NCBI GenBank assembly: GCA_945898095.1
Contig: CAMDHE010000015.1
Location: 1 to 54,923, forward strand
Direction of reading: 5' to 3'
Length of the DNA: 54,923 nt
Source: Roseateles toxinivorans
GTDB taxonomy: Bacteria; Pseudomonadota; Gammaproteobacteria; Burkholderiales; Burkholderiaceae_C
In this document: positions 30,761-54,923 of the stretch, piece after piece
How positions within the stretch are numbered: the stretch's first letter is position 1
Layout of the letters: each line of letters starts with the position of its first letter
Notes under the pieces: generated by a model
Database searches by the model: none
What the model saw: only the letters and a program-made list of their open reading frames with translations
What the model was told of the DNA's origin: nothing
Made by a program: the position numbers and the translations under genes

Positions 30761-30789
30761 ACCCCTCAACTGCTTCCTTCAATCTTGCC

Positions 30790-31996: not shown

Positions 31997-32704
31997 CTAC
32001 ACCCGCAGCCGCTCCAGCAAGTCAGCACGGCTCGCGGGATCTGCGGCCTTGCCCTCGGCAATAACCTGCCCTCGCTCCAGCATGTAGAAGCGGTTCACCA
32101 GTGCGATGGCCCGCTTGATGTTCTGTTCAACCAGCAAAATCGCCATACCGTCCCGGGCCAGGCTGGCCATCAATTCGAACAATTCGTCGACGATCATCGG
32201 CGCCAAGCCTTCAGTCGGCTCATCGATCAAGAGCATCCTGGCCTCGCCCACCAGCGTTCTGGCGATTGCCAGCATCTGCTGCTCGCCGCCGGACAGCGTC
32301 GTGCCCATCTGCTGACGGCGCTCTGCCAACCGGGGGAAGCGCTGGTAGGTCTCCTCTAGCTTTCGCAGAGAGTCAGTTCGAGTTCGGCCCGGGGCTTGCA
32401 TAAAGCCCAGGCACAAATTTTCCTCGACCGTCAGGCCCGGAAAAATGCGCCGGTCCTCAGGTACCAGTCCGATACCAAGCCGGCAGATCTGCTCTGAGGG
32501 CAACCCTTTCAAGACCTGCCCTTCGAAGCGCAGTTCGCCAGCAGACGGCTCGACCCAACCGGCGATCGTCTTCATCACGGTCGTCTTGCCAACACCATTG
32601 CGGCCGAACAGGCCGACGACCTCGCCCGCACCGACCCGCAGCGTGATGCCCTGCAGCACATGGCTGAGGCCGTAATGGGTGTGAACCTGCTTCAATTCCA
32701 GCAT
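31997..32704 (-). CDS. livF: LivF-type ABC transporter ATP-binding protein (importer 1)
   Basis: An ATPase of 235 aa: Walker A GRNGVGKTT, ABC signature LSGGEQQM, Walker B ARMLLIDEPTEGL. Family features of LivF are present (LELKQVHTHYGLSHVLQGI). The start is placed at ATG 32704 with AGGA upstream; a GTG 21 bp earlier is less likely. It is the last gene of the long minus-strand operon, 87 bp after livG. It powers uptake of an amino acid or, as often in aromatic-degrading bacteria, an aromatic acid. Confidence 0.93.
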   Translation of the reverse strand: MLELKQVHTHYGLSHVLQGITLRVGAGEVVGLFGRNGVGKTTVMKTIAGWVEPSAGELRFEGQVLKGLPSEQICRLGIGLVPEDRRIFPGLTVEENLCLGFMQAPGRTRTDSLRKLEETYQRFPRLAERRQQMGTTLSGGEQQMLAIARTLVGEARMLLIDEPTEGLAPMIVDELFELMASLARDGMAILLVEQNIKRAIALVNRFYMLERGQVIAEGKAADPASRADLLERLRV

Positions 32705-32791
32705 GACATGTTCCTGCTCGATCACTTGATTTGAACTTGCGCCAGCCCCGCGCAGCGGCGTTGATACCGGGCTGTTGCCCTTGCCTGACCG

Positions 32792-33544
32792 TCAATGGCT
32801 CGGGCCGAAATAGGCTGCCTGCACTTCCGGATTGGCGCGCACGGTAGCCGGATCGCCTTCAGCCAGCTTTTGCCCCTGTTGCATCACGATGACATGATCG
32901 GAGAGGTTCATCACCAGCTCGACGTCATGTTCAACCAGCAAGATGCTCAATCCATGCTCGCGCGCCAGGCCCCGGATCAAGACCTCGGTCTGCTTCGTTT
33001 CGAAATGGCTCATGCCCTGGGTTGGTTCATCGAGCAGCAGCATGCGCGGCCTTGCGGCCATTGCCACGGCAATTTCCAGCCGGCGCTGTTCGCCATGTGA
33101 CAGATTGCCGGCCAGTTCATTGGCCTTGGCGGACAGGTCGAACTGGCCGATCAAATCGTCAACACGCGCCATAGCAAGTCGACTGCTCGAAAGCGGCCGC
33201 AGCAGCCCGCGGCCTTGCTCGAGAAACTGGGCCGCCAAGCGCAGGTTTTCGCGCAAGGACAGCTCGAAAAACAGATTGGTGATCTGGAATGAACGCGCCA
33301 ACCCGGCTTTGAGCATTCGATTGGGCGCGACTCCGGTCACGTCCATGCCGCCAAAGCGAACGCTCCCGGCAGTCGGCTGCAGCGCACCGCTGATAAGGTT
33401 GAACAAGCTGCTCTTGCCGGCCCCGTTCGGGCCGATCAAGGCGGTGATCGCACCCTGCTGCGCATCGAAGCTGACCTGGTTGACTGCATACATGGCGCCG
33501 AAGCGAACGCTCAAGCCCTGCACTGACAGGATCGGACTATTCAT
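32792..33544 (-). CDS. livG: LivG-type ABC transporter ATP-binding protein (importer 1)
   Basis: An ATPase of 250 aa: Walker A GPNGAGKSS, signature LSHGEQRRLE, Walker B ARPRMLLLDEPTQGM. The LivG-specific C-terminal segment (VRANPEVQAAYFG) is present. The ATG overlaps the livM stop (ATGA). It forms the second nucleotide-binding subunit with LivF. Confidence 0.94.
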   Translation of the reverse strand: MNSPILSVQGLSVRFGAMYAVNQVSFDAQQGAITALIGPNGAGKSSLFNLISGALQPTAGSVRFGGMDVTGVAPNRMLKAGLARSFQITNLFFELSLRENLRLAAQFLEQGRGLLRPLSSSRLAMARVDDLIGQFDLSAKANELAGNLSHGEQRRLEIAVAMAARPRMLLLDEPTQGMSHFETKQTEVLIRGLAREHGLSILLVEHDVELVMNLSDHVIVMQQGQKLAEGDPATVRANPEVQAAYFGPSH

Positions 33545-34536
33545 GTTGACTCCTTGCGCGCATCGAAGCGTCGCTGCAAAGCCGTCAAGGCATAGCCGAT
33601 CATGCCGCGGGGCAAAAGAATCACGACGAAGACAAACAAGCTGCCGATGACAAGTTCATGATGCACGGTGAAGGAGCCGACCAGCGAGCGCAACAAGGTC
33701 AGCAGAGCCGCACCGTAAAGCGGCCCGATCAATGTACCTGTGCCGCCGATGATGACGTTGATGACCGCATTGCCCGAGACCTGGAAAAACATCAGCTCTG
33801 GCGACACAAAACCGCGCAACATCGGGTAAAGCGCGCCACTCACACCGGCGATGCAAGCGGCAGCGACAAAGGCAAAAAGCCTGTAACGCCAGGGATCGAA
33901 GCCGAGAAACGCCACCCTGTGTTCATTGGTGCGAAGCGCTGACAGCAGGCGCCCCAGCGGCGTTTCCAGCAAGTAAGCCAGGCCCAGGTAAAGCAGCGAG
34001 ATGCAAGCCAGGGTGACGAGGAAAAATCCAGCTGGATTGCCCGAGTCCAGCCCCGGCAAAAGAAGGGCAACCGGCACGCCAATGATGCCGTCCGAAGCAC
34101 CCAACTCACGCGTGTTGAAGACGATTTTCGACACCACCTGTGCCAGTCCGAAGCTGACCAGGGCGAAATAGACACCCTTGGAGCGAATCGCGATGATGCC
34201 GCCGATCAAGCCGGCCAATGCGCTCGCCAGCAAGGCGCCCGCCAAAGCGAACCAGAACGAATTACTCCAGTCCTTCAGCAACAAGGCCGACACATAAGCG
34301 CCAAGGCCGAAGAACAGCGCCTGACCCAACGGCAGCAGACCGGTACAGCCGAGCAGCAGGTCAACCGACAAGGCCAGACCGCCGAAAATCAGCGCCTCAG
34401 TAGCGAGTCTGAAATAGAACTGGTCACCCATGAAATGAGCAACCGCCGCAAAGGCGAGCGCGAGGAAGAAAAACAGCAGGGCGAGCCAGCGCAATGCCTT
34501 GGCAGGGCCCTTGGAAATCAGATCATTTTCACGCAT
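33541..34536 (-). CDS. livM: LivM-type ABC transporter permease (importer 1)
   Basis: A membrane protein of 331 aa with about nine hydrophobic helices. It carries the conserved cytoplasmic coupling loop ALRTNEHRVAFLGFDPWRYRL and GGTGTLIGPLYGAALLTLL, as in branched-chain amino acid permeases. ATG 34536 overlaps the end of livH by 8 bp; a TTG two codons earlier is possible. Confidence 0.93.
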   Translation of the reverse strand: MRENDLISKGPAKALRWLALLFFFLALAFAAVAHFMGDQFYFRLATEALIFGGLALSVDLLLGCTGLLPLGQALFFGLGAYVSALLLKDWSNSFWFALAGALLASALAGLIGGIIAIRSKGVYFALVSFGLAQVVSKIVFNTRELGASDGIIGVPVALLLPGLDSGNPAGFFLVTLACISLLYLGLAYLLETPLGRLLSALRTNEHRVAFLGFDPWRYRLFAFVAAACIAGVSGALYPMLRGFVSPELMFFQVSGNAVINVIIGGTGTLIGPLYGAALLTLLRSLVGSFTVHHELVIGSLFVFVVILLPRGMIGYALTALQRRFDARKEST

Positions 34537-35422
34537 GGCCAAGCTTTCCGAACAGACCTTGAGGTCGCCACATCAGCACCAGCACCATGATGCTGAAGAG
34601 CAGCGGATCGCTCCACACCGGCGAGATGAAAAGGCTGGAAATCGACTGCACCTGCGTCAGCAGCAACCCTGCCAGCACCGCCCCCTTGATCGAGCCCATC
34701 CCGCCGATAATGACGACACTGAAAGCGATCAAGACGAAGTCACGCCCCATGGTCGGGAATACCGAATAGATCGGTGCCAGCAGCACACCGGACAGGCCAG
34801 CCAGCGCCACCCCGAAAGCGAATGTCGCCGCATAGACCCGCCCGACCGGCACGCCGAGCGAGGCGCTCATATGCCGGTCAAAGGCTGCAGCTCGAACGAT
34901 CGCACCGACCGAGGTCCGGAACACCAGCAACCAGACTGCGGCGATCAGCAAGGCGCCGAAACCCATCACGAACAGCCTGTAGTTGGGAAAGAACAGACCC
35001 ACCATTTCAGTGGCACCGCTGATCGGTGTTTCAACCCGCAGCGGATTTGCACCGTAGATGATCTTCAGCCCATCCTCGATCACGATGCCCACGCCAAAGG
35101 TCAGCAGCAAGGTCAAGGTGTGCCTGTCCTTGCTGTGGAAAACGCGCTGGATCAGGCCTCGCTCGGTGACATAACCGAGTACTGCCATCAGCAGCGGCAC
35201 CAGCAGCAGCACCCCCCAGAAGGACAAACCGATACCTAGCAAGGAGACGGCCAGATAAGCCCCGATGGCATAGAACTCACCATGCGCCATGTTGATGACA
35301 TCGAGCAGGCCGAAGATGATCGTCAAGCCCAGGGCCATCAGCACCACGGCCATGCCGATCGACAGGCCGTTGATCATCTGTGGCGCAAGCACGAACTGCA
35401 ACCAGTCGACCGCGTTTGTCAT
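34529..35422 (-). CDS. livH: LivH-type ABC transporter permease (importer 1)
   Basis: A membrane protein of 297 aa: GLSIGMAVVLMALGLTIIFGLLDVINMAHGEF is the LivH N-terminal helix pair, and RAAAFDRHMSASLGVPVGRVY is the coupling loop. IIGGMGSIKGAVLAGLLL is also typical. ATG 35422 follows GGGGAG. It lies 13 bp after the binding-protein gene. Confidence 0.93.
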   Translation of the reverse strand: MTNAVDWLQFVLAPQMINGLSIGMAVVLMALGLTIIFGLLDVINMAHGEFYAIGAYLAVSLLGIGLSFWGVLLLVPLLMAVLGYVTERGLIQRVFHSKDRHTLTLLLTFGVGIVIEDGLKIIYGANPLRVETPISGATEMVGLFFPNYRLFVMGFGALLIAAVWLLVFRTSVGAIVRAAAFDRHMSASLGVPVGRVYAATFAFGVALAGLSGVLLAPIYSVFPTMGRDFVLIAFSVVIIGGMGSIKGAVLAGLLLTQVQSISSLFISPVWSDPLLFSIMVLVLMWRPQGLFGKLGHA

Positions 35423-35435
35423 CGCTACTCCCCTC

Positions 35436-36593
35436 TCAGAACTTCGTGCAGTTGTCCGGACCGATCGCCGCTGCGGCCGCGACCTTGCCGACGATCTCGA
35501 ATTTGCCACCATTCACGCGGGCGGCATACATATCCTGCAAGGCCTGATGGTCACCGGCACGCATCAGCTTCATGCCCTGCGGAGTCGCCCATTGCAGGCC
35601 ACGCATCGATTCGCGCAGTTTGTCGGTCTCCACGCTCTTGGCCTTCTCGACTGCGGCCTTGTAGAAAAAGAGCACGCCGTAACTGTCGACGCCGTACAGG
35701 TCAGGCGCGGACTTGTTGGCCGCCTCGAATTCAGCGACGAATTTCTTGTTCGCTGGCGTATCCAGGCTCAGCGAATAAGCGACTCCAGTGACGAAACCAT
35801 CGGCAGCCTTGCCGATCGCAGGCAGATTTTGCGAAGTGACCGTCCCCGAAGCACCGACCACCTGCAGGTTGCGGTTCAGGCCGAATTCAGCCATCTGATT
35901 GAACAGGCGCACTGTGTCATTGCCGGCGACCGATGTGTAGACCACGGTCGGCCTTGCCGCACGAATCTGGCCGAAATATGGCGAATAGTCCTTGTTGTCT
36001 AGGGGAGCAAAGACCTCACCGACTGTCTTCGCGCCCTTGGCCTCGGCGGCCGACTTGAAGGCAGCGACGGTACTGCGGCCCATTTCGTAATCAGGTCCGA
36101 GGTAGAACACCGTAGCGTTCGGGTAGGTCGTCCCGACCCAATCGGCCAGCGCCGCCGACTGCATGCCGGCGCGCGCATTGACGCGAAACACATTGGGTGA
36201 GCATTTATCGGCGGTGATCGAGTCTGCAAACGACACCGTCGTGGCGATCAAGCGGCCGTTGCGCTCGGCGACCTGACCGACTGCCAATGTCGACCCCGAA
36301 TTGACCGTGCCGGTCAAAAAATCGACCTTGTTGACCTGAAACAGCTTCTCGGCCTTCTGCACCGCCACCGCCGGATTGGCCTCTTCATCCTCGTAAATCA
36401 GTTCGATTTTGCGGCCCATCACGCCGCCTGCAGCGTTGATCTGGGCTGCCGCGAGATCGAGCCCCCATTTCACTTGCTGGCCGATCCCCGCGTAGGTGCC
36501 CGACAGGGGCGTGACGACACCGATTCGGATGTTTTGCGCTGATGCAGCGCCGGCGATCAGCGCGAGGCAGAGGGCTATAGCTTGTTGTTTCAT
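35436..36593 (-). CDS. Periplasmic substrate-binding protein, Liv/aromatic-acid type (importer 1)
   Basis: A protein of 385 aa with a signal peptide (MKQQAIALCLALIAGAASAQ) and the Peripla_BP_6 fold (IRIGVVTPLSGTYAGIGQQV, GGVMGRKIELIYEDEE). ATG 36593 follows AGGAGA. Relatives bind branched-chain amino acids, amides or aromatic carboxylates. It lies between the enoyl-CoA hydratase and livH, so it delivers substrate to importer 1. This is one of two such proteins in the same operon, and they are not close copies. Confidence 0.92.
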   Translation of the reverse strand: MKQQAIALCLALIAGAASAQNIRIGVVTPLSGTYAGIGQQVKWGLDLAAAQINAAGGVMGRKIELIYEDEEANPAVAVQKAEKLFQVNKVDFLTGTVNSGSTLAVGQVAERNGRLIATTVSFADSITADKCSPNVFRVNARAGMQSAALADWVGTTYPNATVFYLGPDYEMGRSTVAAFKSAAEAKGAKTVGEVFAPLDNKDYSPYFGQIRAARPTVVYTSVAGNDTVRLFNQMAEFGLNRNLQVVGASGTVTSQNLPAIGKAADGFVTGVAYSLSLDTPANKKFVAEFEAANKSAPDLYGVDSYGVLFFYKAAVEKAKSVETDKLRESMRGLQWATPQGMKLMRAGDHQALQDMYAARVNGGKFEIVGKVAAAAAIGPDNCTKF

Positions 36594-36631
36594 GATCCTG
36601 TCTCCTGAAGTTGGTAGTTGCGAAATGGAAA

Positions 36632-37444
36632 TCAAAGTCCGGTGAAAACCGGTCGACGCTTCGAATGAAAGGCCTCCACACCCTCCTTGAAATCAGCCGA
36701 ACTGCGCAGTCTGGAGTAACTGTGACCTTCCAGTTCGATCGCAATCGACAGCGGCGAGTCCTCAGTGTCATTGAGCAGTTTTTTTGCCGTGCGCTGTGCC
36801 AGCGGCGAAAAGCTGCGCAATTCATCGACCAGCGCATCGGTTGCTTGTTCAAGCTCCGCATCGGCTACGCAGTCAGTTGCCACGCCCCAATCGAAGGCCT
36901 GGCGCCCAGGGATACGCCGCGAGCGCATCACGATGTCCTTGGTACGCGTAATGCCGATCATTTTCTGCAGCCGCGCCGACCCGCCTGAGCCAGGAATCTG
37001 GCCGAGCTTTTGTTCCGGCAAGGCATACAGCGAAGTCTCGGTGACAAGGCGGAAATCGCAGGCCAGCGACAACTCGAAACCAACGCCGAAACAATAGCCC
37101 CGCCCGGCTGCAATCACCGGCTTGCTGCAACGCGCTGGTGCGGCCACGTTCCAGGCCAGCTTCGAAACATGCTCGGGCGTCGCCTCGAGAAAACCCCTTA
37201 TGTCACCGCCGCTGGAAAAATGCTCGCCAATGGCTCGAATGACGATCACGCGAACCCGCGCATCGGCATCAAGCGCTTCAAAGGTGATGCGCAACTGCTC
37301 GCGCGCCAGCATGCTGATCACATTCAGCGGCGGGCGATCAAGGATGACGTCGGCGCGTTGCCGGGCTGCATCGATCTCGACACGGAAACCGTCAAGTTCA
37401 ATCGAAAGGCTTTGTGCCGGATGGTTCAAATCGGTCAATTTCAT
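36632..37444 (-). CDS. Enoyl-CoA hydratase/isomerase family protein
   Basis: A crotonase-fold protein of 270 aa. The oxyanion-hole segments are HFSSGGDIRGF and GYCFGVGFELSLACDFRL. A Glu in the second catalytic position is in ALPEQKLGQIPGSGG; the first catalytic Glu of typical hydratases is less clear. ATG 37444 follows AAGGAAAG. It sits after the aldehyde dehydrogenase (19-bp gap) in a row with a short-chain dehydrogenase and a hydroxylase. Hydration or a ring/C-C reaction on a CoA thioester is expected. Confidence 0.9.
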   Translation of the reverse strand: MKLTDLNHPAQSLSIELDGFRVEIDAARQRADVILDRPPLNVISMLAREQLRITFEALDADARVRVIVIRAIGEHFSSGGDIRGFLEATPEHVSKLAWNVAAPARCSKPVIAAGRGYCFGVGFELSLACDFRLVTETSLYALPEQKLGQIPGSGGSARLQKMIGITRTKDIVMRSRRIPGRQAFDWGVATDCVADAELEQATDALVDELRSFSPLAQRTAKKLLNDTEDSPLSIAIELEGHSYSRLRSSADFKEGVEAFHSKRRPVFTGL

Positions 37445-37463
37445 AGCGCTCTTTCCTTCGGGT

Positions 37464-38915
37464 TCAAGGGGCAATGACGCCCGCGTTTTGGTAGATATGC
37501 TTGATTTCGACAAAGTCGATCAAGGCGTCGGCACCGTGCAGCCGGCCGACACCACTGCGTTTGTAGCCACCGGTCTCAGCTTCGGCAAAGAGCTTGTTGT
37601 GCTCATTCAGCCAAACTGTGCCGTTGCGAAGTGCACGGGCCATCCGCATCCCGCGCGCGCCGTCCGCCGTCCAGACGCTGGCCGAAAGTCCGAACTCGCT
37701 GTGATTGGCAAGGGTGACCGCTTCTCGCTCGTCTTCGAACTGTTCCAGCACCAGCAACGGGCCGAATATTTCTTCCTGAATGAAGAAGGCATTGGTGTCG
37801 CTATGGGCGATCAGGGTCGGCGTGAGGAAACTTCCCGAACTCAGCGCTCCGCCGGGGCGACCTCCGCGCAACAACACCTCGTCAGCCTCGTCCAAGGCCC
37901 TGCAGATCTGCGCATCGACCTGATTGCGCGATGCCATGTCGATCAACGGGCCGATCTGTGCGCCGGCAAGATCTCCCGGCGCGACCGTCATGGCGGCCAG
38001 CGACCGGGTCAGCGCCTGCTTCATCGCTTGATAGCGCGATGCGTGCACAAGCACTCGCCGTGCGGCGGTGCATTGCTGGCCCGAAATGATCGTGGCAGCG
38101 GCTGCCAGCTGCGGCGCGATACGCTCGATGTCACAGTCATCGAAAACGACGCAGCAAGACTTGCCGCCGAGTTCGAGCGAAAGTTTTTTCATCGTCGGAG
38201 CGGCATCGGCCATGATGCGCTGGCCGGTCGCAGTTGAGCCAGTGAAACAAAGCACATCCACATCGCGCGAAGCTACCAGCAATTTCGCGATCGCATGGCC
38301 GGACTCAATGACCAGGTTGACCACACCCTTGGGCATGCCCGCTACTTCGTGCAACTCGGCGATCACGGCCGCTGTGATCAAGGCCGTCTGCGGCGCCGGC
38401 TTGACGACCGCAGTACAACCAGCGGCCAGCGCCGGTGTCAGTGCGCGGATCAGCAAAACGACCGGTGCGTTCCAAGGGATGATCAAGCCAGCAACACCCG
38501 CTGGCTCCTTCAGAAGCGTCGAGTATTCGCCAGGCGCGACTTCGAACACATGGCCAGGAATGTAGCGGGCCAGCCCGGCGTAGTAACGGATCTCCGAGAT
38601 TGCGCCACCGATTTCAGCGCGCGACTGCGCGAGCACCTTGCCATTCTCCCGGGTCAGCAACTGGGCCAGTTGTTCGGCCTTGCGTTCCAATCCATCCGCC
38701 CAATGCAGCATCACCTGCTGGCGCAAGCGTGGTGCCTGCGCCCAATCAGGCCGCTCGAACGCGCGCTTGGCGGCGGCTATCGCAGCTTCCCCATCGGCGA
38801 GTTCTCCGTCCGCATAGCGGCCGATTACCCGTCCATCGGCAGGGTTGATGCTGTCGACGTGTACGCCGCCTGCAAGCCATTGCCCATCAATCAGTTGTCT
38901 GGCTTCTTTGATCAT
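37464..38915 (-). CDS. Aldehyde dehydrogenase
   Basis: A protein of 483 aa of the aldehyde dehydrogenase superfamily: IPWNAPVVLLIRALTPALAAG, FTGSTATGQRI, catalytic Glu in LSLELGGKSC, catalytic Cys in SGQQCTAARR, then EEIFGPLLVLEQF. ATG 38915 follows AAGGAATG. With the short-chain dehydrogenase just upstream (9-bp gap) it forms a plausible alcohol-to-acid pair acting after the hydroxylase. Confidence 0.93.
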   Translation of the reverse strand: MIKEARQLIDGQWLAGGVHVDSINPADGRVIGRYADGELADGEAAIAAAKRAFERPDWAQAPRLRQQVMLHWADGLERKAEQLAQLLTRENGKVLAQSRAEIGGAISEIRYYAGLARYIPGHVFEVAPGEYSTLLKEPAGVAGLIIPWNAPVVLLIRALTPALAAGCTAVVKPAPQTALITAAVIAELHEVAGMPKGVVNLVIESGHAIAKLLVASRDVDVLCFTGSTATGQRIMADAAPTMKKLSLELGGKSCCVVFDDCDIERIAPQLAAAATIISGQQCTAARRVLVHASRYQAMKQALTRSLAAMTVAPGDLAGAQIGPLIDMASRNQVDAQICRALDEADEVLLRGGRPGGALSSGSFLTPTLIAHSDTNAFFIQEEIFGPLLVLEQFEDEREAVTLANHSEFGLSASVWTADGARGMRMARALRNGTVWLNEHNKLFAEAETGGYKRSGVGRLHGADALIDFVEIKHIYQNAGVIAP

Positions 38916-38924
38916 TTCATTCCT

Positions 38925-39704: not shown

Positions 39705-39728
39705 CAATTCATCCTTTAAAAAGCAGGT

Positions 39729-40487
39729 TCAGCCAGGGTCACGCTGCGCGTCAACTCGGGCCTGGATTTCGGGTTTGCGTGCCTTGTCAGACATGCCGTT
39801 GAACAGAGTGGCGATCAAGCCCTTGTCGAGGTCGCTGGTGCCGAACAGGGCATCGCAGATCGGGAAAGTCAGGTTGAAATTGCGCGTGTGCATGAAGTCC
39901 GGGTTGTGGTGCAACACATGCATTCGACGCACCGTGTTGACCAGCGGCAGCGCATCGAGCAGCGGATGTTCGAGGTGAGCGAGCGTGTGCAGGCCCTCAT
40001 ACATCAGGAAATAGGCGGCCATCGTCAGCATCGCGATATAGCCGGCATTGGAATGCCAGAGATTGCCCAGCAAGAGAGCCGCCGGCAGCGCCGCCAGCAC
40101 GAACAGCACCGGAGCGAAGGGCGGAAACAGCAGCGCTCGCCAATCCTTCTGGCCGTGGTAATCCAGTGTCTTGTGCGAAAAAAACTGGTGGTGGGTCGCC
40201 ACATGGCGCTTGTAAGCAGGTTTGATCCAGCTCTTCGGACTGTGTAGCAGATAGCGATGGCCCGCCCACTCTGCCCAGTTCCCGAACAGCAATATGGGCA
40301 GTACGACCCAAAGCCATTGCTGCCAGCTGGCAGCTTCAATCTGGGCAGCGCAATAAGCGATCACGCCGCAAGTAAAGACCAGCGTGAACGCAAGATGCAT
40401 TTCGCCGCGGTACCAGCCCGGGGTGTTGGTGCGGTACTCCTCACGATAAGCCAGCGAGCGGGCCACGATTTCCTGTTCACGATTCAT
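39729..40487 (-). CDS. Fatty-acid hydroxylase/sterol-desaturase family membrane di-iron enzyme
   Basis: A protein of 252 aa with several hydrophobic segments and the histidine clusters that bind two irons: HRYLLH, HHQFFSH, HTLAHLEH and MHVLHH. The family hydroxylates or desaturates alkyl groups with O2. ATG 40487 follows AAGGAAA. Its place between an importer and SDR/aldehyde dehydrogenase genes suggests oxidation of a methyl or methylene group of the imported compound, starting an alcohol-aldehyde-acid series. An electron donor gene is not adjacent. Confidence 0.9.
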   Translation of the reverse strand: MNREQEIVARSLAYREEYRTNTPGWYRGEMHLAFTLVFTCGVIAYCAAQIEAASWQQWLWVVLPILLFGNWAEWAGHRYLLHSPKSWIKPAYKRHVATHHQFFSHKTLDYHGQKDWRALLFPPFAPVLFVLAALPAALLLGNLWHSNAGYIAMLTMAAYFLMYEGLHTLAHLEHPLLDALPLVNTVRRMHVLHHNPDFMHTRNFNLTFPICDALFGTSDLDKGLIATLFNGMSDKARKPEIQARVDAQRDPG

Positions 40488-40503
40488 TGCATATTTCCTT
40501 TCT

Positions 40504-45175: not shown

Positions 45176-45204
45176 CTTTGTCTCCGTTTGTGGTTGAGGG
45201 TCAA

Positions 45205-46721: not shown

Positions 46722-48278
46722 TCAGTGGGTCTCCGGCAAAGTCGGACGCCCGGCAACCGGCGCAGCGACGACATAGTCGCCCGCAACCAGTTTGCGACGC
46801 AGCACCTTGCCGACCGGCGACTTTGGAATTTCCTGCACGAACACATAGTCGCGAGGGCGTTTGAAATTGATCAGATCCGAATTGCGGCAATGCGCATCCA
46901 GGGTCGCCGCGTCAAGCTGACCACGCGATTTCACAAAGGCCACGACTTTCTGGCCCCAGCGCGGATCGGCCAGGCCGGCTACTGCGACATCGTCAACCGC
47001 CGGGTGCAGCGAGAGTACGGATTCGATGTCGACAGGCGAAATATTTTCCCCGCCGCTGATGATCATGTCGTCGATCCGCCCGGTGACAAACAGATCGCCA
47101 TCGGTATCGAAATAGCCTGTGTCACCTGTGAAGTACCAGCCTTCGCGCAGGCTCTTGGCGTTCGCATCGGGCCGGTTGTGATAGCCCTCGAAAGCCTCGT
47201 CGCTGAGCAGATCGGCAATGATCTGCCCCTCTTCAAGCGGTGCGGCGAGTTGCCCGACACAAGCAGCGTCAAGCTTGATCACCCGCAAGCGCGTATTGAT
47301 GCCAGCTCGGCCTGCCGAGCCGGCCTTGGCCAGCGCGCGCTGATTGACCGCCATCGTGTAGATTTCGGAGCTGCCGTAATGATTGACAAAAAGTTCCGGC
47401 TGAAATGCTGCTTGCAGACGCAGCAGCAATGCATCGTGCATCGGCGCGCCGGCAAAACCGAGCTTGCGCACCGAACTGATATCGGTCGTCGCGAAATCAG
47501 GATGCGCCAGCAGATCGTGGAACAGCGTCGGCACCAGATAGAGATGGCTGACGCGTTCGGTTGCGATTTTCTGCAAAGCCTGCCCAGCCTCAAAGCGCGC
47601 CTGACAGACAAAGCGGCCGTCGAGCAAGGCCAGGGTCAGCAGCGAGCGCACCCCCATCGTGTGATAAAGCGGCATCACGCCAAGCGTGCATTCGCCGTAG
47701 CCAAAGCAGTTCTGCGCCACATGGGCCAGCGCAGCAATGCGCTCGGCACGCTGTCGCCGCGGCACACCCTTGGGTGTACCGGTCGTACCCGAGGTGAAAA
47801 GCATCAGGGACAGGTCTTCCGCATTGGCCAGAGCTTGCGGCTCGCAAGCCCCGCCCATGCAGACATCGAAATGCAAGTTGCCGCCCTGAGCTTCGCCGAC
47901 CGCGACGCGCATCACGCCCGCAGCCAGCAGCGATGACATGACCGCCTGTTCGGAGGCAGCTTCGAATATCAGCAGCCTGGCGCCGGAATTGACAAGGCCA
48001 AAGTCGATTTCATCGGACTTGGCACGCCAGTTCAAGGGCGTCATGACGATGCCGGCGAACTGGCAGGCCCAATGAATTGTGGCTGCCTCGGCGCGATTCT
48101 GCAGCAAGGTCAACAGATGGTCTCCGCGCTTTAACCCCAGCTCAAGCAAGCCGCGTTGCGCTGCTCCGATCCGCAAAGCCCATTGAGAATAGGTGAGGCG
48201 CAGTTCGCCGTCGACCAGTGCGACCGCATTGGGCGCTCTTTCAAGGCTTTGCAGAAAAGTTCGTCCGAGGTCAAGCAT
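46722..48278 (-). CDS. Acyl-CoA synthetase (AMP-binding family)
   Basis: A protein of 518 aa of the adenylate-forming family. The P-loop is LFTSGTTGTPKGVP, the A5 region is NHYGSSEIYT, the A7/A8 region is YFTGDTGYFDTDGDLFVTGR followed by IDDMIISGGENI, and the catalytic Lys is in KSPVGKVLRRKL. It activates a carboxylic acid to its CoA thioester. It overlaps the 2Fe-2S subunit gene by 8 bp, so it is coupled to the Mo hydroxylase. The substrate is probably the compound hydroxylated by, or imported for, this operon. Confidence 0.92.
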   Translation of the reverse strand: MLDLGRTFLQSLERAPNAVALVDGELRLTYSQWALRIGAAQRGLLELGLKRGDHLLTLLQNRAEAATIHWACQFAGIVMTPLNWRAKSDEIDFGLVNSGARLLIFEAASEQAVMSSLLAAGVMRVAVGEAQGGNLHFDVCMGGACEPQALANAEDLSLMLFTSGTTGTPKGVPRRQRAERIAALAHVAQNCFGYGECTLGVMPLYHTMGVRSLLTLALLDGRFVCQARFEAGQALQKIATERVSHLYLVPTLFHDLLAHPDFATTDISSVRKLGFAGAPMHDALLLRLQAAFQPELFVNHYGSSEIYTMAVNQRALAKAGSAGRAGINTRLRVIKLDAACVGQLAAPLEEGQIIADLLSDEAFEGYHNRPDANAKSLREGWYFTGDTGYFDTDGDLFVTGRIDDMIISGGENISPVDIESVLSLHPAVDDVAVAGLADPRWGQKVVAFVKSRGQLDAATLDAHCRNSDLINFKRPRDYVFVQEIPKSPVGKVLRRKLVAGDYVVAAPVAGRPTLPETH

Positions 48279-48774
48279 TTGCGACCTCCATCACTGCGGC
48301 CACGATCGGCGCGTAGCCGGTGCAGCGACAGAGGTGGCCGGAGAGCATCTCGCGCACCTCGTCTTCAGTCGGTCTGCGGCTGGCAGCCTCCAAGCGCGCC
48401 AACCAGTCAACGCAGGACATCAGAATACCGGCAGTACAAAAACCGCATTGCAGCGCATGATGACGCTTGAACGCCGACTGCAATTCGCTCAGCCGGCCAT
48501 CCGTCCCGGCCAACCCTTCAACCGTGTCGACCTTGCGGCCATCGACTTGAACTGCCAAGGTCAGACAGGAGCGGCTGGCAATCCCGTCGATCAAGACCGT
48601 GCAGGCACCGCAAACGCCATGCTCACAACCGACATGGGTTCCGGTTGCGCCGAGTTGCTGGCGTAGAAAATCACTCAACAGCAGCCGCGGCGCGGCCAGC
48701 GCCTGCCGCTGTCTGCCATTCAATTGCAGCGACACCCGATGCTGGATCGCCTGGTGAAGAATTGTCGATGTCAT
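48271..48774 (-). CDS. 2Fe-2S small subunit of the third Mo hydroxylase
   Basis: A protein of 167 aa with two 2Fe-2S sites: CEHGVCGACTVLIDG with a later SC, and CGFC...CRCTG. It overlaps the FAD subunit stop by 4 bp (ATGA). The order large-medium-small differs from both the S-L-M operon and the two-subunit enzyme elsewhere in the window. Confidence 0.93.
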   Translation of the reverse strand: MTSTILHQAIQHRVSLQLNGRQRQALAAPRLLLSDFLRQQLGATGTHVGCEHGVCGACTVLIDGIASRSCLTLAVQVDGRKVDTVEGLAGTDGRLSELQSAFKRHHALQCGFCTAGILMSCVDWLARLEAASRRPTEDEVREMLSGHLCRCTGYAPIVAAVMEVANA

Positions 48775-49601
48775 GAGGACCTTTGCTGCAGCGCTTGTGC
48801 AACCGCCCGGCTGCCGAGACGGCGCACCAGATGGCGGCGCGTGGTGGCGCTGATATGTGGATCGCTCCGGGCGTCCAGAGCCCAGGCAAATTCGTTCAAT
48901 GCATCGTCCAGGGCAGCGCCTTCGAGCAAGGGGAAGTCACGCGCAACTGGCCGGTCAGCAACCCCACCGACGGCCACCCGCAAGCTCCCTGCATCGGCCA
49001 CCACGGCTACCGCACAGACCGCAAAGTCACCATGCCGGCGCGAATATTCGGCAAAGCCGAAGGTCTGCCCCGGCTTGGCCAAGGGCAAGCGAACGGACTC
49101 GAGCAATTCGTCTGCCGCGCGAGCAGTGCTCAGCATGCCCTTGAAGAAATCGTCGGCTGCAAGCAAGCGTTTCTTGCGGGACGAACGGAGCAACACCTGA
49201 CCTCGCAACGCCAGCAGGCACAAGGGCAGTTCGGCCGATGGGTCGGCATGCGCGATCGATCCACAGAAAGTGCCGCGATTGCGAATCTGGAAATGTGAAA
49301 TATGCGGAAACGCCATGGCCAGCAAGGGCAACTGCTGCGCCAATTGCGGGCGCCATTCGACACAAGACTGGGTGGCTGCAGCGTTGACCCGCAGGTGCTG
49401 TTCAGTGACGTCAACCCGGGCCAGTTCGGCGCTGCGCGAAATGTCGATCAAGAGCCTGGGTTGGGCCAGGCGCATATTCAAAACCGCCATCAGCGATTGC
49501 CCCCCGGCCAAGATGCGGGCATCTTCTCCATGCTTTGCCAGCAAGTCGCAGACCTCAGCGAGGCTGTCAGCGCGCACATAGTCAAAAGCTGCCGGTTTCA
49601 T
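48771..49601 (-). CDS. FAD-binding medium subunit of the third Mo hydroxylase
   Basis: A protein of 276 aa with ILAGGQSLMAVLNMRLAQP and the second FAD motif NRGTFCGSIAHADPSAELPL. The extra 4Fe-4S insertion of 4-hydroxybenzoyl-CoA reductase HcrB is absent, so a benzoyl-CoA-type reductase is not supported. ATG 49601 overlaps the large-subunit stop (ATGA). Confidence 0.93.
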   Translation of the reverse strand: MKPAAFDYVRADSLAEVCDLLAKHGEDARILAGGQSLMAVLNMRLAQPRLLIDISRSAELARVDVTEQHLRVNAAATQSCVEWRPQLAQQLPLLAMAFPHISHFQIRNRGTFCGSIAHADPSAELPLCLLALRGQVLLRSSRKKRLLAADDFFKGMLSTARAADELLESVRLPLAKPGQTFGFAEYSRRHGDFAVCAVAVVADAGSLRVAVGGVADRPVARDFPLLEGAALDDALNEFAWALDARSDPHISATTRRHLVRRLGSRAVAQALQQRSS

Positions 49602-52567
49602 GCGCCCATCCATTTCAGCAGGCGTTGCCACCAACCAAGCCGCGGGCCTGCGGCCTGACGCCCGAGAGACTCAAACAACTGCGCCACAATGATGCGGGCC
49701 GCGCCTTCGAGCATGCGGCTGCCGACCATCGCCACCTTGCCGCCTACTTGCGCCTGATAGTCATAATTCAGGCGGCAGCCGCTGGCCGTGGCTTCCAGCG
49801 TGACCAGTCCATTTCCGGCACCGCTGCCGAGTGATGACAGGCCGCTGCCGGCCAGCCTCAAGCGGCGAGGCGGGTCAATGTCTGACAACTCGATCGTGGC
49901 CTGATACCGGGCCTTGATCAGCCCGACACCGATGGTCACATCGGCAAGATAGCGGTGCGGGCCGGTGGCTGTCAGTGCATGACAGCCCGGGATCACCCTG
50001 GCCAATGCCAGCGGATCCAGCAGAATCGCAAAGACCTGCTCCGGCGTGGCAGCGATCTCGACCATGCCCTGGGCTTGCAGAGACAGTCCGCCAGGAATTG
50101 AAGGCGCCGCGGCCGGTGCCTGCTCAGGTGCCGGGTCGGCAGTCCCGAGCAGGTCCAGGACCTTCGATGGCGTCAGTGGCAACCGCACATCGGTCAGGTC
50201 GTGCTGCGGTCGCAGCGCATCGGCAAAGGCGTTGGCGATGCAGACCGGGGTGCTCATATTGTTGCCTTCGCCCAGTCCCTTGGCACCCAAGGGCGTGAAT
50301 GGCGACGGGGTCTGCAGATGGACGATCAGCGGCGTGGGCACTTCACAGGCTGTCGGCATCAGGTAATCGGCCAGGCTGCCTGACTGAAAACTGCCATCTG
50401 CGCCATAGCTGAACTCTTCGAACAAGGCCGCGCCAAGACCTTGCGCGAATGCGCCGCAGATCTGCCCATCAGCCAGCGCCGGATTCAGCAGGCGCCCGGC
50501 GTCATGGGCGGTGATATAGCGGTCGACCCGGACTGCGCCGGTATCCGGGTCGACTTCGAGTCCGCAGACATCGAACACGAACCCATAGGCGGCTGAGGTA
50601 TTGACCCGATCTTGCGCGTCAGGCGCGCCAAGGGTTTCGGGGGTCCAGAAGACCGTTTCACGCAAGCCGGGGTTGAGTCCCTGCGGCAACAATGCCGGCG
50701 CCCAATGCGGGCTGGCGGCCAGCCGGGTGAAGGGTTGGCTCTGGGTTGGATTATCAAGATTGAAAATCGCACCGTCGGCAAAACCGATCTGCCCCGCATT
50801 GCAACCGAACTGTGCCGCCGCGACCGCTGCCAGTTTGTCGCGCAGCCGGACTGCAGCCAGGTGCACGGTCCCCGCCACTGCCCCGGCAAAACGACTCGAA
50901 TAATTGCCTGCCGCCACCGACCAGGCGTCCTTGGCCGTATCGAACTCGACATTGACCATCACCTGACCGGGTTGCAAACCCAGTACATCGGCGACGACTT
51001 GGGAGCAAACCGTCATATGCCCCTGACCGGCAGGCGCTGAGGCGATCGTCACATTGATGCCACCGAGCAGATCGATGGCCACCGTGGCAGCGGCTATTGC
51101 ACCGTTTTTCGGACCGGCTTTGGCGCGCTGTTCAGCCGTCAGCACGGTGCTGATATAGCCCATATTGGAAACCGATGGCTCGACGATTGCGGCCAAGCCG
51201 ATGCCATAGAGCTTGCCGGACGCGCGGGCCGCCAACTGACGCTCGCGCAACCCTTGTCCCGCGGCGGCAGCCAGGGCCATGTCCATCAAGCGCGCATAGT
51301 CGCCCGAGTCGAGCAAGGCCCCGGCTGCGGCGCGGAACGGGAATTGATCGGAACGGACGAAGTTGAGCCGTCGCAGTTCAACAGGATCAATCGCCAGTTC
51401 AACCGAGATCCGGTCGATCAAGCGCTCCAGCGCGTAGTAGACCTGCGGGCCGCCAAAGCCTCGGACCAGTCCGGTCGGGGTCTTGTTGGTGACGACTACG
51501 CGGTTGCGTACGGCAAGATGGGCGATGTCGTAGGCGCCGGTCAGACAGCCATGCATGCGATAGAAAGTGGCCGGTTCGGGCGCGCGCAGATAGGCGCCGA
51601 CCTCGTCGACCTGATCCCAGCGCAAGGCCAGGATGCGACCATCATCCTGGACCGCGGCCTCAATCGTCGTCAGGCGCGCGGTCGCCGAAGTCGCTGCGCT
51701 CAAATGCTCAAGCCGATCCTCAACCCATTTGACCGGTGCGCCCGCCTTGCGCGAGGCCAGGCACATCAGAACGATGGAAGGGAAGACCGCCTGCTTGACG
51801 CCAAAACTGCCGCCCGAATCGCGCGGCACCTTGTGGCGCAGCTTGTTGCCCGCCACCTTCAGCGACATGGCCATCACCGCATGCAAGGAGAACGGCCCCA
51901 TGAAATTGGAAACTACGTCGTAGCCTTCGTCGCCGCTCAAATGTTCGGCAATCACCACACCGCATTCGATCGGGGTGCAGCTGTTGCGCGGGTAATGCAC
52001 CGTTGCCTGCACCTGACGAGCGCTCTTGAAAGCAAGCTCGGGATCGCCGTATTTGAACTCGCGTTCGGACACCACGTTGCTGCCGACAGCGTCGTGCAGC
52101 AAGGTGGTATCCGCGCGCAGCGCCTGCTCGATCTCGACGACGGCCGGCAGCGGTGCGTAATCGACCCGAATCAATTCGAGTGCGTCTTCGGCGATATAGC
52201 GGTCCTCGGCGACGACCACGGCTACCGGTTCGCCGACATGGCGTACCCGATCGATTGCCAAAGCCCATTGCGCCATCGGCTGCTTCACGCCGACTACAAA
52301 TGGCTTTGACCAACGCTGTACATCTTCACCGGTCAAGACGGCATGCACGCCGCGCAAGTTCAGCGCGGCGGCCGCGTCGATGGCCAGCAGCCTTGCATGG
52401 GCATAGGGTGACCGCAACACGGCAGCATGCATTGTCCCGGGCTTGCTGCCCAGATCGTCAGCATAGGTTCCGCGACCGCAGAGCAAGGCAGCATCTTCCA
52501 GTCGCTCAAGGCGCTGGCCGACGAACCCTTCAGCTTTCGCTGCAGGCGGTTCATGCAGTCCGTACAT
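49598..52567 (-). CDS. Mo hydroxylase large subunit fused to a C-terminal CoxG (SRPBCC) domain
   Basis: A protein of 989 aa. Residues 1 to about 800 form the molybdopterin large subunit (RLERLEDAALLCGRGTYADD, active-site loop GLVRGFGGPQ, catalytic Glu in GAKGLGEGNN). After an Ala/Pro linker, residues about 826-989 are a CoxG-type SRPBCC domain (VEIAATPEQVFAILLDPLAL, GCRLNYDYQAQVGGKVAMVG). The domain lacks the transmembrane helix of free-standing CoxG and ends in an amphipathic WWQRLLKWMG. ATG 52567 has GAGGAG upstream, so the earlier in-frame start at 52624 is not used. The active-site loop differs from form II CoxL, hence a different substrate. No coxDE-like genes accompany it. Confidence 0.9.
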   Translation of the reverse strand: MYGLHEPPAAKAEGFVGQRLERLEDAALLCGRGTYADDLGSKPGTMHAAVLRSPYAHARLLAIDAAAALNLRGVHAVLTGEDVQRWSKPFVVGVKQPMAQWALAIDRVRHVGEPVAVVVAEDRYIAEDALELIRVDYAPLPAVVEIEQALRADTTLLHDAVGSNVVSEREFKYGDPELAFKSARQVQATVHYPRNSCTPIECGVVIAEHLSGDEGYDVVSNFMGPFSLHAVMAMSLKVAGNKLRHKVPRDSGGSFGVKQAVFPSIVLMCLASRKAGAPVKWVEDRLEHLSAATSATARLTTIEAAVQDDGRILALRWDQVDEVGAYLRAPEPATFYRMHGCLTGAYDIAHLAVRNRVVVTNKTPTGLVRGFGGPQVYYALERLIDRISVELAIDPVELRRLNFVRSDQFPFRAAAGALLDSGDYARLMDMALAAAAGQGLRERQLAARASGKLYGIGLAAIVEPSVSNMGYISTVLTAEQRAKAGPKNGAIAAATVAIDLLGGINVTIASAPAGQGHMTVCSQVVADVLGLQPGQVMVNVEFDTAKDAWSVAAGNYSSRFAGAVAGTVHLAAVRLRDKLAAVAAAQFGCNAGQIGFADGAIFNLDNPTQSQPFTRLAASPHWAPALLPQGLNPGLRETVFWTPETLGAPDAQDRVNTSAAYGFVFDVCGLEVDPDTGAVRVDRYITAHDAGRLLNPALADGQICGAFAQGLGAALFEEFSYGADGSFQSGSLADYLMPTACEVPTPLIVHLQTPSPFTPLGAKGLGEGNNMSTPVCIANAFADALRPQHDLTDVRLPLTPSKVLDLLGTADPAPEQAPAAAPSIPGGLSLQAQGMVEIAATPEQVFAILLDPLALARVIPGCHALTATGPHRYLADVTIGVGLIKARYQATIELSDIDPPRRLRLAGSGLSSLGSGAGNGLVTLEATASGCRLNYDYQAQVGGKVAMVGSRMLEGAARIIVAQLFESLGRQAAGPRLGWWQRLLKWMGA

Positions 52568-52650
52568 TTGTCTCCTCATGCACCCGAGCGAGGTTCGCTC
52601 AATTGGTAGCTTGATTTTGAGCAATCAAGCTGCCGAGGTGCTAACGCAGG

Positions 52651-52700: not shown

Positions 52701-52716
52701 CTTGATCGCCATCGCC

Positions 52717-53634
52717 TCAGATCAGCGCGGTACCCGACCCTGGAGGCGGCTCGAACAAGTTGACGACGCGTCGATAGTCGCTCGGCGTGATGCCGAGATG
52801 CGCCCGGAAAAAATGCGAGAAATGACTGTGGGTAGAAAAACCCAGATCATGGGCGACATCGGCCACCGGCTCGCGGCTTTGCGTCAGACGCTGCACCGCT
52901 GCTTCGAAGCGCAAGACATTGGCGTAGACCAGCGGTGTGACCTGCGTATCGCGTTGGAACAAAGTGAAGAAATGCGCCCTCGACAGGCTGGCACTGGCCG
53001 CCAGTTGTTCGATGTCAAGGTCATGCCCGATATCCTGCTTCATCAAGGCAATCGCCTTGCGGATGCGGGAATCCATGGCGACCGGCGGTCTGGCCTTCAG
53101 CAGACCGGCCAGATCGCGCCAGCCTGAGTAGCTCTCGATCACCGCGATGATCAGATTGAACAGCAGGTCTTCGAGACGACCCTGCGAGAGCTCATCAGCC
53201 CACCACAACTCGAGCACGAACTCTTCAGTGATCTTGCGCGTCGCGGCATTCAGTCGCACGCCGCGTTCCGGGAAAAATCGTGGATGCCCCGACATGGCCA
53301 ATGATTTCTGGATTTCGGCCAGCCAACCCGGCTCGATATAAAGCGCCAGGACCAAGGTGCGTTCGCTCGCCGGTGCCACATGCTCATAGGCATGGTATTC
53401 CCAGGCATTGACCAGCACCGCCATCTCGTCGGTCAGCGGCGCGCGTTCACCGCGCACGCTGAAAGCAGCATCGGCTCCGCCAGCCTTGATCAGGATATGA
53501 CAATGAGGATGGGCGTGGCCGACCAGTGGCGCACTCATGTCCAGCAAAGCCACGCGGCCGAAACGGCCCTGAAAAATTTTGACAGCGGAGGACAAGGGAT
53601 TGATGAAGCTCTGGAAGACCCGGCGCGCCAGCAT
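52717..53634 (-). CDS. AraC-family transcriptional regulator
   Basis: A protein of about 305 aa. The N-terminal half is a cupin-like ligand domain (PLVGHAHPHCHILIKAGG). The C-terminal AraC domain has two helix-turn-helix motifs, LDIEQLAASASLSRAHFFTL and VADVAHDLGFSTHSHFSHFF, then HLGITPSDYRR. The start is uncertain: ATG 53634 is the first that does not lie within the upstream gene, and no clear Shine-Dalgarno precedes it. It stands immediately before the Mo hydroxylase and most likely activates it. Confidence 0.87.
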   Translation of the reverse strand: MLARRVFQSFINPLSSAVKIFQGRFGRVALLDMSAPLVGHAHPHCHILIKAGGADAAFSVRGERAPLTDEMAVLVNAWEYHAYEHVAPASERTLVLALYIEPGWLAEIQKSLAMSGHPRFFPERGVRLNAATRKITEEFVLELWWADELSQGRLEDLLFNLIIAVIESYSGWRDLAGLLKARPPVAMDSRIRKAIALMKQDIGHDLDIEQLAASASLSRAHFFTLFQRDTQVTPLVYANVLRFEAAVQRLTQSREPVADVAHDLGFSTHSHFSHFFRAHLGITPSDYRRVVNLFEPPPGSGTALI

Positions 53635-53680
53635 AGCGACTTTCGCGTTCCGCGCCAACTGGGCTTGCACCAATGCCGCT

Positions 53681-54727
53681 TCACTCCCCGCTGCGTGGCG
53701 CCTGCTGTAAAAGTTCAGCCAGCCGATCCTTGTACAAGCCGGCCCGCAAGACGCTGGCATGGCCACAGGTAGCGGGGCCTCCGGGGATCAGCAGGTACTG
53801 GCCATGCCTGACCCTTTTGATCTCGCGCTGCATCAAACCGAGTTCGGGCGGATTGCGTTCATCGTCGGCCGAGTTGATCGCCAGCAGCGCCGCCTCGATG
53901 CGTTCCAGGCCGGGCCCGGGGTCGAAGTCGAAGCTGGATTCCCATTGATAAAGCAGGTCATTGGCATCACCGCTGAAGGGCTGGGCCAGCGCGGCGGCGA
54001 TCAGCTGGTCGCCGGCGGTCGACGAAGGTGCCTGGCCATACCAGCCCAGGCTGCCACCGGCTGTGGCCAGGCTGAAATACAGCAGGTGGGCTTGCATCCC
54101 GCGCGGCTGGGCGCTGTAGTTGCCCCCTTGCCAATCCGGATCATTGCGGATCGACTGCGTGAGCATGCGGCGCAGCATCCAGTTGCGGCCGGACATCGCA
54201 GCCGGCGTGCTGGCCATCGGCACCAGCGCATCGGCAAAGCCCGGGTAGCGTGAACCCCATAGCCAGGTTTGCATGCCGCCCATCGAATAGCCGATGACGG
54301 CGCGCAGCCGCTTCAGCCCGAGGCCTTGGGTGACCAGCCGATATTGCGCCAGCACCATGTCGTCGTAGTTGTAGCGCGGGAAGTTCATGCGCAGCCCGTT
54401 CGAAGGTTTGGCGCTGCGGCCGCAACCGAGCGAGTCGGGCAGGATGAGGAAATAGCGGCTTGCGTCAAGCGGCTGGCCCGGGCCGAACAAGGCGCCGGCG
54501 AATTCCTCGCTCAACAGCGCGGCGCCCGAACCCGCCGTGCCATGCAGGATCAGCACCGGCTCGCCATTCGGGTTGCCGATGGCCTGGTAGTGCAACTTCA
54601 GCTCAAGCAACGATTCGCCGCCATGGAAGCCGAAGTCGCGCGCCACCCAGTCACAATGTTGCGGCACCGGATAGCCAGGCGCTGGCGCCACTGCAGGCGA
54701 CTCCTTGTTGCTTTCAATCATGGACAT
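53681..54727 (-). CDS. Alpha/beta hydrolase of the homoserine O-acetyltransferase (MetX) family
   Basis: A protein of 348 aa with the MetX-type fold. NPNGEPVLILHGTAGSGAALL is the oxyanion region, GYSMGGMQTWLWG holds the nucleophile Ser, the acid is in INSADDERNP and the His in CGHASVL. True MetX enzymes use a GxSxGG context with conserved Arg and Asn residues for homoserine. Sequence here resembles the many uncharacterised hydrolases of that family found in catabolic operons. Hydrolysis of an ester or a CoA thioester is likelier than methionine synthesis. It lies between the partial enoyl-CoA hydratase and araC. Confidence 0.87.
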   Translation of the reverse strand: MSMIESNKESPAVAPAPGYPVPQHCDWVARDFGFHGGESLLELKLHYQAIGNPNGEPVLILHGTAGSGAALLSEEFAGALFGPGQPLDASRYFLILPDSLGCGRSAKPSNGLRMNFPRYNYDDMVLAQYRLVTQGLGLKRLRAVIGYSMGGMQTWLWGSRYPGFADALVPMASTPAAMSGRNWMLRRMLTQSIRNDPDWQGGNYSAQPRGMQAHLLYFSLATAGGSLGWYGQAPSSTAGDQLIAAALAQPFSGDANDLLYQWESSFDFDPGPGLERIEAALLAINSADDERNPPELGLMQREIKRVRHGQYLLIPGGPATCGHASVLRAGLYKDRLAELLQQAPRSGE

Positions 54728-54837
54728 ATTTTTTTCCGGGCCAGGCAGCGTTGCAGGTCAATTCAAACGGAGCGCAAAGCAGGTCAGCGCTGCGGCGCCG
54801 AATCAGCTTGGCAGTCTTGAGGTATGCAGCCCTGGTT

Positions 54838-54923
54838 TCAGTCAGCCCTGGAGGGCTTGACGAAGCGCGCCGGCCGTTTTTCGATAAAGGCAGCCGTGGC
54901 TTCGCGGTGATCGGCGGTCTCGG
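54838..54923 (-). CDS. Enoyl-CoA hydratase family protein, C-terminal end only (cut by right edge)
   Basis: Twenty-seven residues and a stop are visible, reading ETADHREATAAFIEKRPARF and then a short basic tail. The EATAAFIEKRPARF pattern is the usual C-terminus of crotonase-fold enoyl-CoA hydratases (EAVAAFLEKRKPxF). It is on the same strand and 110 bp upstream of the MetX-like gene, so the catabolic operon continues past the window. Confidence 0.7.
   Translation of the reverse strand, partial: ETADHREATAAFIEKRPARFVKPSRAD

Follow-up and report, generated by a model that had tools for sequence, protein, structure and literature searches.

The window analysed here is the entire 54,923-nt contig CAMDHE010000015.1 (C15 in our numbering, in which G, C and L denote genomes, contigs and loci) of a Roseateles toxinivorans assembly (GCA_945898095.1; G000, 4.71 Mb in 209 contigs). 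Between 31997 and its right-hand end (54923), the minus strand carries 20 complete open reading frames (ORFs) and the final 27 codons of a further one, among which we recognize a putative hmf/psf cluster for furan catabolism with two Liv-type ATP-binding cassette (ABC) importers. Between the longest ORFs, 12 of 20 junctions overlap (by 4 to 376 nt) and the widest gap measures 110 bp, confirming the ~23-kb co-directional run with small gaps and many overlaps noted in a preliminary description of this DNA. Alternative starts, which we chose from the junction table, trim the large overlaps of FAH (40487), HmfE (37444), LivK2 (36593) and LivH2 (35422), each with a Shine-Dalgarno-like motif; an alternative start of the LivM-LivG fusion at 43007, lacking such a motif, gives a 4-nt overlap. 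Gene classes from Pfam and NCBIfam agree with those assigned previously, the di-iron hydroxylase being without a Pfam match of its own. The features are as follows (percentages are protein identities):

54838..54923, minus strand: gene cut by the contig end, final 27 codons, too short for a family test
53681..54727, minus strand: alpha/beta hydrolase (PRK06489; NF005071, 490 bits against a cut-off of 305), co-directional, outside the conserved cluster
52717..53766, minus strand: AraC-family regulator (HTH_18/HTH_AraC), adjoining hmfA in G193, G183, G091, G005, L022, L023 and L029 (68-78%)
49598..52624, minus strand, likely start 52567: predicted HmfA, molybdenum (Mo) subunit of 2-furoyl-coenzyme A (CoA) dehydrogenase with a C-terminal CoxG domain (MoCoBD_1/2, Ald_Xan_dh_C, COXG); 64-78% to hmf clusters, 48% to a divergent copy in G305
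48771..49634, minus strand: predicted HmfB, flavin adenine dinucleotide (FAD) subunit (FAD_binding_5); 57-72% to hmf clusters, at most 51% in G305
48271..48774, minus strand: predicted HmfC, 2Fe-2S subunit (Fer2, Fer2_2); 61-75% to hmf clusters, 54-59% in G305
46722..48278, minus strand: predicted HmfD, 2-furoyl-CoA synthetase, an adenosine monophosphate (AMP)-forming ligase (AMP-binding); 61-75% to hmf clusters
45205..46662, minus strand: predicted HmfF, decarboxylase of furan dicarboxylic acid (FDCA) dependent on prenylated flavin mononucleotide (prFMN), UbiD family
43967..45175, minus strand: LivK1, substrate-binding protein of importer 1 (Peripla_BP_6)
43004..43870, minus strand: LivH1, permease of importer 1 (LivH/UrtB-type NCBIfam matches), in conserved order
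41202..43379, minus strand, likely start 43007: LivM-LivG fusion, permease and ATPase of importer 1 in a single ORF (BPD_transp_2, ABC_tran), conserved
40504..41208, minus strand: LivF1, ATPase of importer 1 (LivF-type match), conserved
39729..40598, minus strand, likely start 40487: FAH, membrane fatty-acid-hydroxylase-like protein of the histidine-rich di-iron type, with homologues that pass PF04116
38925..39707, minus strand: PsfG-like short-chain alcohol dehydrogenase (SDR; adh_short_C2)
37464..38915, minus strand: PsfA-like aldehyde dehydrogenase (ALDH; Aldedh)
36632..37513, minus strand, likely start 37444: HmfE, proposed 2-oxoglutaroyl-CoA hydrolase of crotonase fold (ECH_1)
35436..36635, minus strand, likely start 36593: LivK2, substrate-binding protein of importer 2 (Peripla_BP_6)
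34529..35512, minus strand, likely start 35422: LivH2, permease of importer 2, conserved
33541..34542, minus strand: LivM2, permease of importer 2, conserved
32792..33544, minus strand: LivG2, ATPase of importer 2, conserved
31997..32725, minus strand: LivF2, ATPase of importer 2, conserved

The UbiD-family protein points to furans as the substrate class, matching the structure 6H6V at 430 bits, compared with 211 for AnInD, 178 for protocatechuate decarboxylase, 149 for UbiD and 61 for PA0254. 6H6V is HmfF, which acts on FDCA (PMC8988006), and its H297 is central to the specificity for furans, the pyrrole enzyme PA0254 having Asn at this position (PMC7976604; all papers are cited here for the parts available). 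This histidine, which a hand count in the 6H6V chain puts at 296 and which we take as the same residue, aligns in our numbering with the His of an EHLLLG motif in the window's HmfF, where the downstream Arg is also present. Both residues of the extended motif EHLLLGxIxREA are kept in 87/87 hmfF ORFs, not all of them independent. A genome scan with HmfF gave 317 confirmed matches, the best 80 of which were retained as hmfF loci; absences in loci refer throughout to the fetched stretches, which reach at most ~10 kb to either side. At least three of HmfA-D occur in the fetched stretch at 66 of the 80.

In the window, homologues of HmfABC, HmfD and HmfE stand together, with 57-82% identity to clusters outside close kin. 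Three annotated plasmids of Cupriavidus and Caballeronia carry the order UbiD-UbiX-(Mo, FAD, 2Fe-2S subunits)-AMP ligase-crotonase, one of them with a TctC-type gene inserted, and HmfE is 78-81% identical to the gene directly after the AMP ligase in all three; a glucose-methanol-choline (GMC) oxidase, HmfH, and a major facilitator superfamily (MFS) permease come next after the hmf genes in two. PDB searches with HmfA and HmfD returned class-level matches only. For hmfABCDE of Cupriavidus basilensis, furoate is known to be converted to furoyl-CoA by HmfD and hydroxylated by HmfABC, with 2-oxoglutarate as the end product and HmfE proposed as thioesterase, and an AraC regulator is required for growth of Pseudomonas pseudoalcaligenes R1D on furfural (PMC6678421, part available). 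Knock-outs place the short-chain dehydrogenase PsfG and the aldehyde dehydrogenase PsfA in FDCA formation (PMC12064950, part available).

Judged from sequence, the cluster almost certainly serves a furan pathway, that of 5-hydroxymethylfurfural (HMF), 2,5-furandicarboxylate (FDCA) and 2-furoate. The preliminary description had held that the gene order matches no known pathway, which is wrong: the genes correspond to hmfABCDE, hmfF, psfG, psfA and araC (PMC6678421, PMC12064950, in the parts available), a conserved homologous cluster that already belongs to a known pathway, which is the outcome that the description itself had named as refuting. Its 'enoyl-CoA hydratase' corresponds to HmfE, and in place of the aromatic or terpenoid acids it had suggested for growth tests, furans are most likely, given the HmfF match and the HmfABCDE neighbours; for the same reasons we dropped a terpenoid or benzenoid acid pathway. 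The pathway itself is thus already known, and what is new is the modularity of the two importers.

The arrangement that we favour with high confidence is a furan-catabolic hmf/psf cluster of two joined modules. In the upper module, importer 1 (LivK1, LivH1, the LivM-LivG fusion and LivF1) would take up 5-hydroxymethyl-2-furancarboxylic acid (HMFCA) and/or FDCA; the SDR would oxidise HMFCA to 5-formyl-2-furoate (FFCA), the aldehyde dehydrogenase would turn FFCA into FDCA, and HmfF would decarboxylate FDCA to 2-furoate, its prFMN being supplied by a UbiX encoded elsewhere in the genome. In the lower module, 2-furoate would enter through importer 2 (LivKHMGF2), HmfD would form 2-furoyl-CoA, HmfABC would hydroxylate ring C5 with water-derived oxygen, and, after opening of the lactone form, HmfE would release 2-oxoglutarate into the tricarboxylic acid cycle, with AraC as the likely activator. 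Uptake, CoA activation, water-derived hydroxylation, decarboxylation and side-chain oxidation, all proposed before, fit this scheme, except that decarboxylation would precede CoA activation and hydroxylation. The upstream alpha/beta hydrolase is not claimed as lactone hydrolase, as it is not conserved with the cluster. Elsewhere in the window, 11168-11932 (minus strand) encodes an enol-lactonase (PcaD) homologue, at 219 bits below the NCBIfam cut-off of 256, which could be a helper in lactone opening.

The order araC-hmfABCD-hmfF-importer 1-FAH-SDR-ALDH-hmfE-importer 2 is found again in G193, G183 and G091, in places with additional genes or wider spacing, at protein identities of 61-87% from araC to LivF2; a search for the same order elsewhere, as the preliminary description had proposed, thus finds it kept in three other genomes. 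The part from araC to HmfE is also found in L023 and L029. Some of the records are redundant: L022 and L110 are one contig, L022 equals G193:C35, and L021 has almost the same sequence as the window. A homologue of the alpha/beta hydrolase was not found in loci L018-L124 (40% identity over half the length) and the partial gene is too short to test, so we delimit the conserved cluster to ~31997-53766 (19 genes). For this part the order kept elsewhere speaks against chance; 53681-54923 may be a chance neighbour.

Genome co-occurrence bears on the two modules. In the family sample (200 genomes, G000 included; E-value limits 1e-80 or 1e-100), the 7/200 genomes with hmfD are exactly those with LivK2, and the 5/200 with hmfF exactly those with LivK1. 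Random coincidence of these sets would come to ~4e-13 and 4e-10, figures that are not proper probabilities, as the counts are uncorrected for relatedness (G193 and G091 belong to one genus). Importer 2 directly follows hmfABCDE in G014, G005 and G186, and the latter two have the lower block only, with no match to hmfF or LivK1 anywhere in the genome. G014 carries hmfF-importer 1-FAH-SDR-ALDH-araC at the end of a separate contig, C5, where 128 bases separate araC from the contig start; in the same genome, hmfA is preceded by 78 bases on contig C56. This shows the upper segment as a movable unit outside hmfD-hmfE; we withdrew G014 as proof of physical separation, since C5 and C56 may adjoin. G305, a member of another family, has the blocks on different large contigs: C33 holds hmfF-importer 1-FAH-SDR and C68 holds hmfD-hmfE, each with tens of kilobases between it and the nearest contig end.

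Individual loci show further combinations. In L044, hmfF, hmfE, importer 1, SDR and ALDH are grouped, and no match to HmfA-D exceeding 55% was found within 10 kb. In L030, L054, L055 and L060, 70-123 bp separate LivK2 from hmfD; the fetched stretches of L054, L055 and L060 contain no LivK1. Among cultured relatives, Massilia cavernae, Massilia agrisoli and Paralcaligenes ureilyticus carry importer 2, and Noviherbaspirillum denitrificans carries importer 1. MFS permeases were found at 0/12 hmfF loci with LivK1 or LivK2 versus 33/68 of the others, and thus seem to take over the importer role elsewhere. A LivK1 search of plasmids gave no match. We lean towards 2-furoate as the cargo of importer 2 and, to the same degree, towards FDCA/HMFCA as that of importer 1, both assignments being read from gene content.

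Several observations weigh against such a scheme. The order sample (295 genomes, sharing G000 and G091 with the family sample) contains hmfD in nine genomes and LivK2 in only three; hmfF is present in six and LivK1 in only three, all of which have hmfF. G253 has hmfF (59%) without hmfD. The LivK2 match of G305 has 59% identity and lies ~20 kb from hmfD; in the same genome, divergent HmfABC-like genes (48-59%) stand beside an importer-2-like set (L124, C68), and we saw no ALDH homologue following the SDR. G000 itself has a second LivK2-like protein (51%). As five of the seven hmfD genomes have both modules, the importer split rests mainly on G005, G186 and G305. On the enzyme side, the PsfG-like and PsfA-like assignments follow from class and position, a single XdhC query detected no maturation factor of this type in the window, and hmfG (UbiX) is absent from the window. 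As a separate observation on hmfD, the homologue at G297:C133:2270-3790, from a fragmented genome, contains one in-frame TAG.

The missing hmfG stands out, as this gene is present in 73/80 hmfF stretches. In nine loci of close and distant relatives, hmfF and livK1 are 693-795 bp apart; all nine stretches contain an HmfG match, and a UbiX-like reading frame was seen within the space itself in five. The space measures 29 bp in the window (45176-45204) and 32 bp in the near-identical contig L021. With hmfG missing from the cluster, prFMN would have to come from an unlinked UbiX, for which the G000 genome has a single match, on C26.

As befits a PsfG/PsfA-type route, the SDR and ALDH genes lie near hmfF, and HmfH, the GMC oxidase of HMF/HMFCA, has no match in the window; elsewhere in G000, eight GMC loci (short stretches) were found, six at 29-35% identity to HmfH and two without a match over half its length. 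HmfH occurs at 0/6 hmfF loci with the SDR versus 45/74 without it, in agreement with the available part of PMC12064950. LivK1 is present at 6/6 SDR loci and an ALDH homologue at 39/80 hmfF loci. SDR matches on plasmids comprised five records, all below 60%, at E 1e-60. The SDR is a candidate for HMFCA to FFCA, and the ALDH for FFCA to FDCA.

Among the alternatives, the one that fares best keeps the furan pathway and supposes unspecialised importers, both carrying several furan or aromatic acids, or one carrying something unrelated. In the PDB, LivK2 best matches a range of periplasmic binding proteins (at most 144 bits) and no entry comes close to LivK1 (at most 67 bits), so that neither specificity can be read from them; in the order sample, moreover, 6/9 hmfD genomes lack LivK2 and 3/6 hmfF genomes lack LivK1. 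Set against this are the exact, differing genome distributions in the family sample, the presence of the lower block alone in G005 and G186, and the two blocks lying apart in G305, which leave unspecialised importers possible though somewhat doubtful.

A further alternative concerns FAH, which in the window falls below detection for PF04116. All six homologues scanned, of 20 found, pass the PF04116 cut-off, and the histidine motifs HxxxxH, HxxxHH and HxxHH are invariant in 17 aligned sequences. We take these motifs to be the histidine-cluster set of the PF04116 fatty-acid-hydroxylase/sterol-desaturase superfamily, which FAH of the window shares, differing by its setting in furan clusters. The class 'di-iron hydroxylase' of the preliminary description draws its support from homologues and motifs, not from a match of the protein itself. 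FAH occurs in 14/80 hmfF loci, with HmfH also present in eight and absent in six. It was absent from five fetched stretches with hmfA-D genes and without hmfF (L018, L125, L112, L113 and L114), and thus seems to accompany the upper pathway; G014, the source of L112, carries FAH in its hmfF block.

From its position ahead of the alcohol and aldehyde dehydrogenases, we would guess that FAH hydroxylates a methyl group. The upper module would then be a methylfuran pathway (FAH, SDR, ALDH, HmfF) with its own importer, importers 1 and 2 being specific for furan di- and mono-carboxylates, respectively. FAH would convert 5-methylfurfural or 5-methyl-2-furoate to the hydroxymethyl compound, SDR and ALDH would oxidise this to the acid, and HmfF would remove the acid group, a XylM-XylB-XylC-like cascade feeding a decarboxylase. 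The literature searched yielded no paper on a bacterial 5-methylfurfural or 5-methyl-2-furoic acid hydroxylase and none linking furoic acid with a sterol desaturase; nor did it yield one on a furoic acid or hydroxymethylfurfural ABC transporter in Burkholderia (for the latter two topics, a key survey of the field lay outside the search). We consider the methylfuran route unlikely.

The cluster might also degrade another heteroaromatic acid, such as thiophene-2-carboxylate or pyrrole-2-carboxylate, with furans as side substrates only. A route through CoA activation, a Mo hydroxylase and ring opening is known for thiophene-2-carboxylate too. Neither Liv importers nor a di-iron hydroxylase appear in the furan cluster table in the available part of PMC12064950. 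However, the UbiD protein is close to HmfF and far from PA0254, whose 61 bits led us to drop the pyrrole-2-carboxylate route, and the furan-specific His is kept, making this explanation very improbable. Finally, the idea that unrelated catabolic operons follow one another on the same strand by chance has next to no probability and is refuted for 31997-53766 by the conservation of order (araC to LivF2 in three genomes, araC to HmfE in L023 and L029), even though the upstream hydrolase is not conserved and uninformative scans give no support for a single transcript (terminator-like sites versus shuffles, 17 vs 12.9, standard deviation (sd) 4.3, and 5 vs 10.7, sd 3.4; promoter-like sites, 2 vs 3.5 and 3 vs 2.1). 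The genes of the conserved cluster may be co-transcribed.

Compared with hmfABCDE and hmfFG/hmfH of C. basilensis HMF14 (Koopman 2010, per the available part of PMC6678421), the furan cluster of the window shares homologues of HmfA-E and HmfF and the order HmfA-B-C-D, with probably the same chemistry. It differs in having hmfF and the upper block between hmfD and hmfE, SDR and ALDH instead of the GMC oxidase HmfH, no match to hmfG or hmfH, and two Liv ABC importers with no MFS permease match. With the hmf/psf genes of Pseudomonas umsongensis GO16 (PMC12064950, part available) it shares the PsfG and PsfA types, HmfF, HmfABCDE and AraC; in contrast to these, it is without UbiX (psfC) or XdhC-type (psfD) genes, Liv importers replace HmfT/HmfI, the di-iron hydroxylase is extra, and no LysR gene lies inside, one being found just past the end on the other strand (30658-31791).

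As the pathway is known, the cluster opens no new metabolism; it offers a possible division of labour between two importers. Specific FDCA transporters are scantly described (PMC12064950, part available), and uptake and export of FDCA are relevant to making and recycling furan-based plastics. The comparison also draws attention to a di-iron membrane protein that is conserved in furan clusters and for which we came across no assigned role.

The remainder of the contig holds further Mo enzymes. A second Mo hydroxylase operon (4534-10529, plus strand) encodes 2Fe-2S, Mo and FAD subunits followed by AAA and CoxE-like von Willebrand factor A proteins, and a third Mo hydroxylase (16687-19817, plus strand) consists of an ORF with a 2Fe-2S domain and a Mo subunit in which the MoCoBD_2/MoCoBD_1 order is unusual. 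A sulfite-oxidase-type Mo protein adjoins cytochrome c at 379-3031 (minus strand). The GC content falls to 0.50 over 22001-24000, from ~0.6 around it, across an X-Pro dipeptidyl-peptidase (S15 family) gene. A row of genes for hydantoinase A and B, a TctC-type binding protein and an aldehyde dehydrogenase occupies 24351-30685 (minus strand), and the plus-strand LysR gene separates it from the furan cluster.

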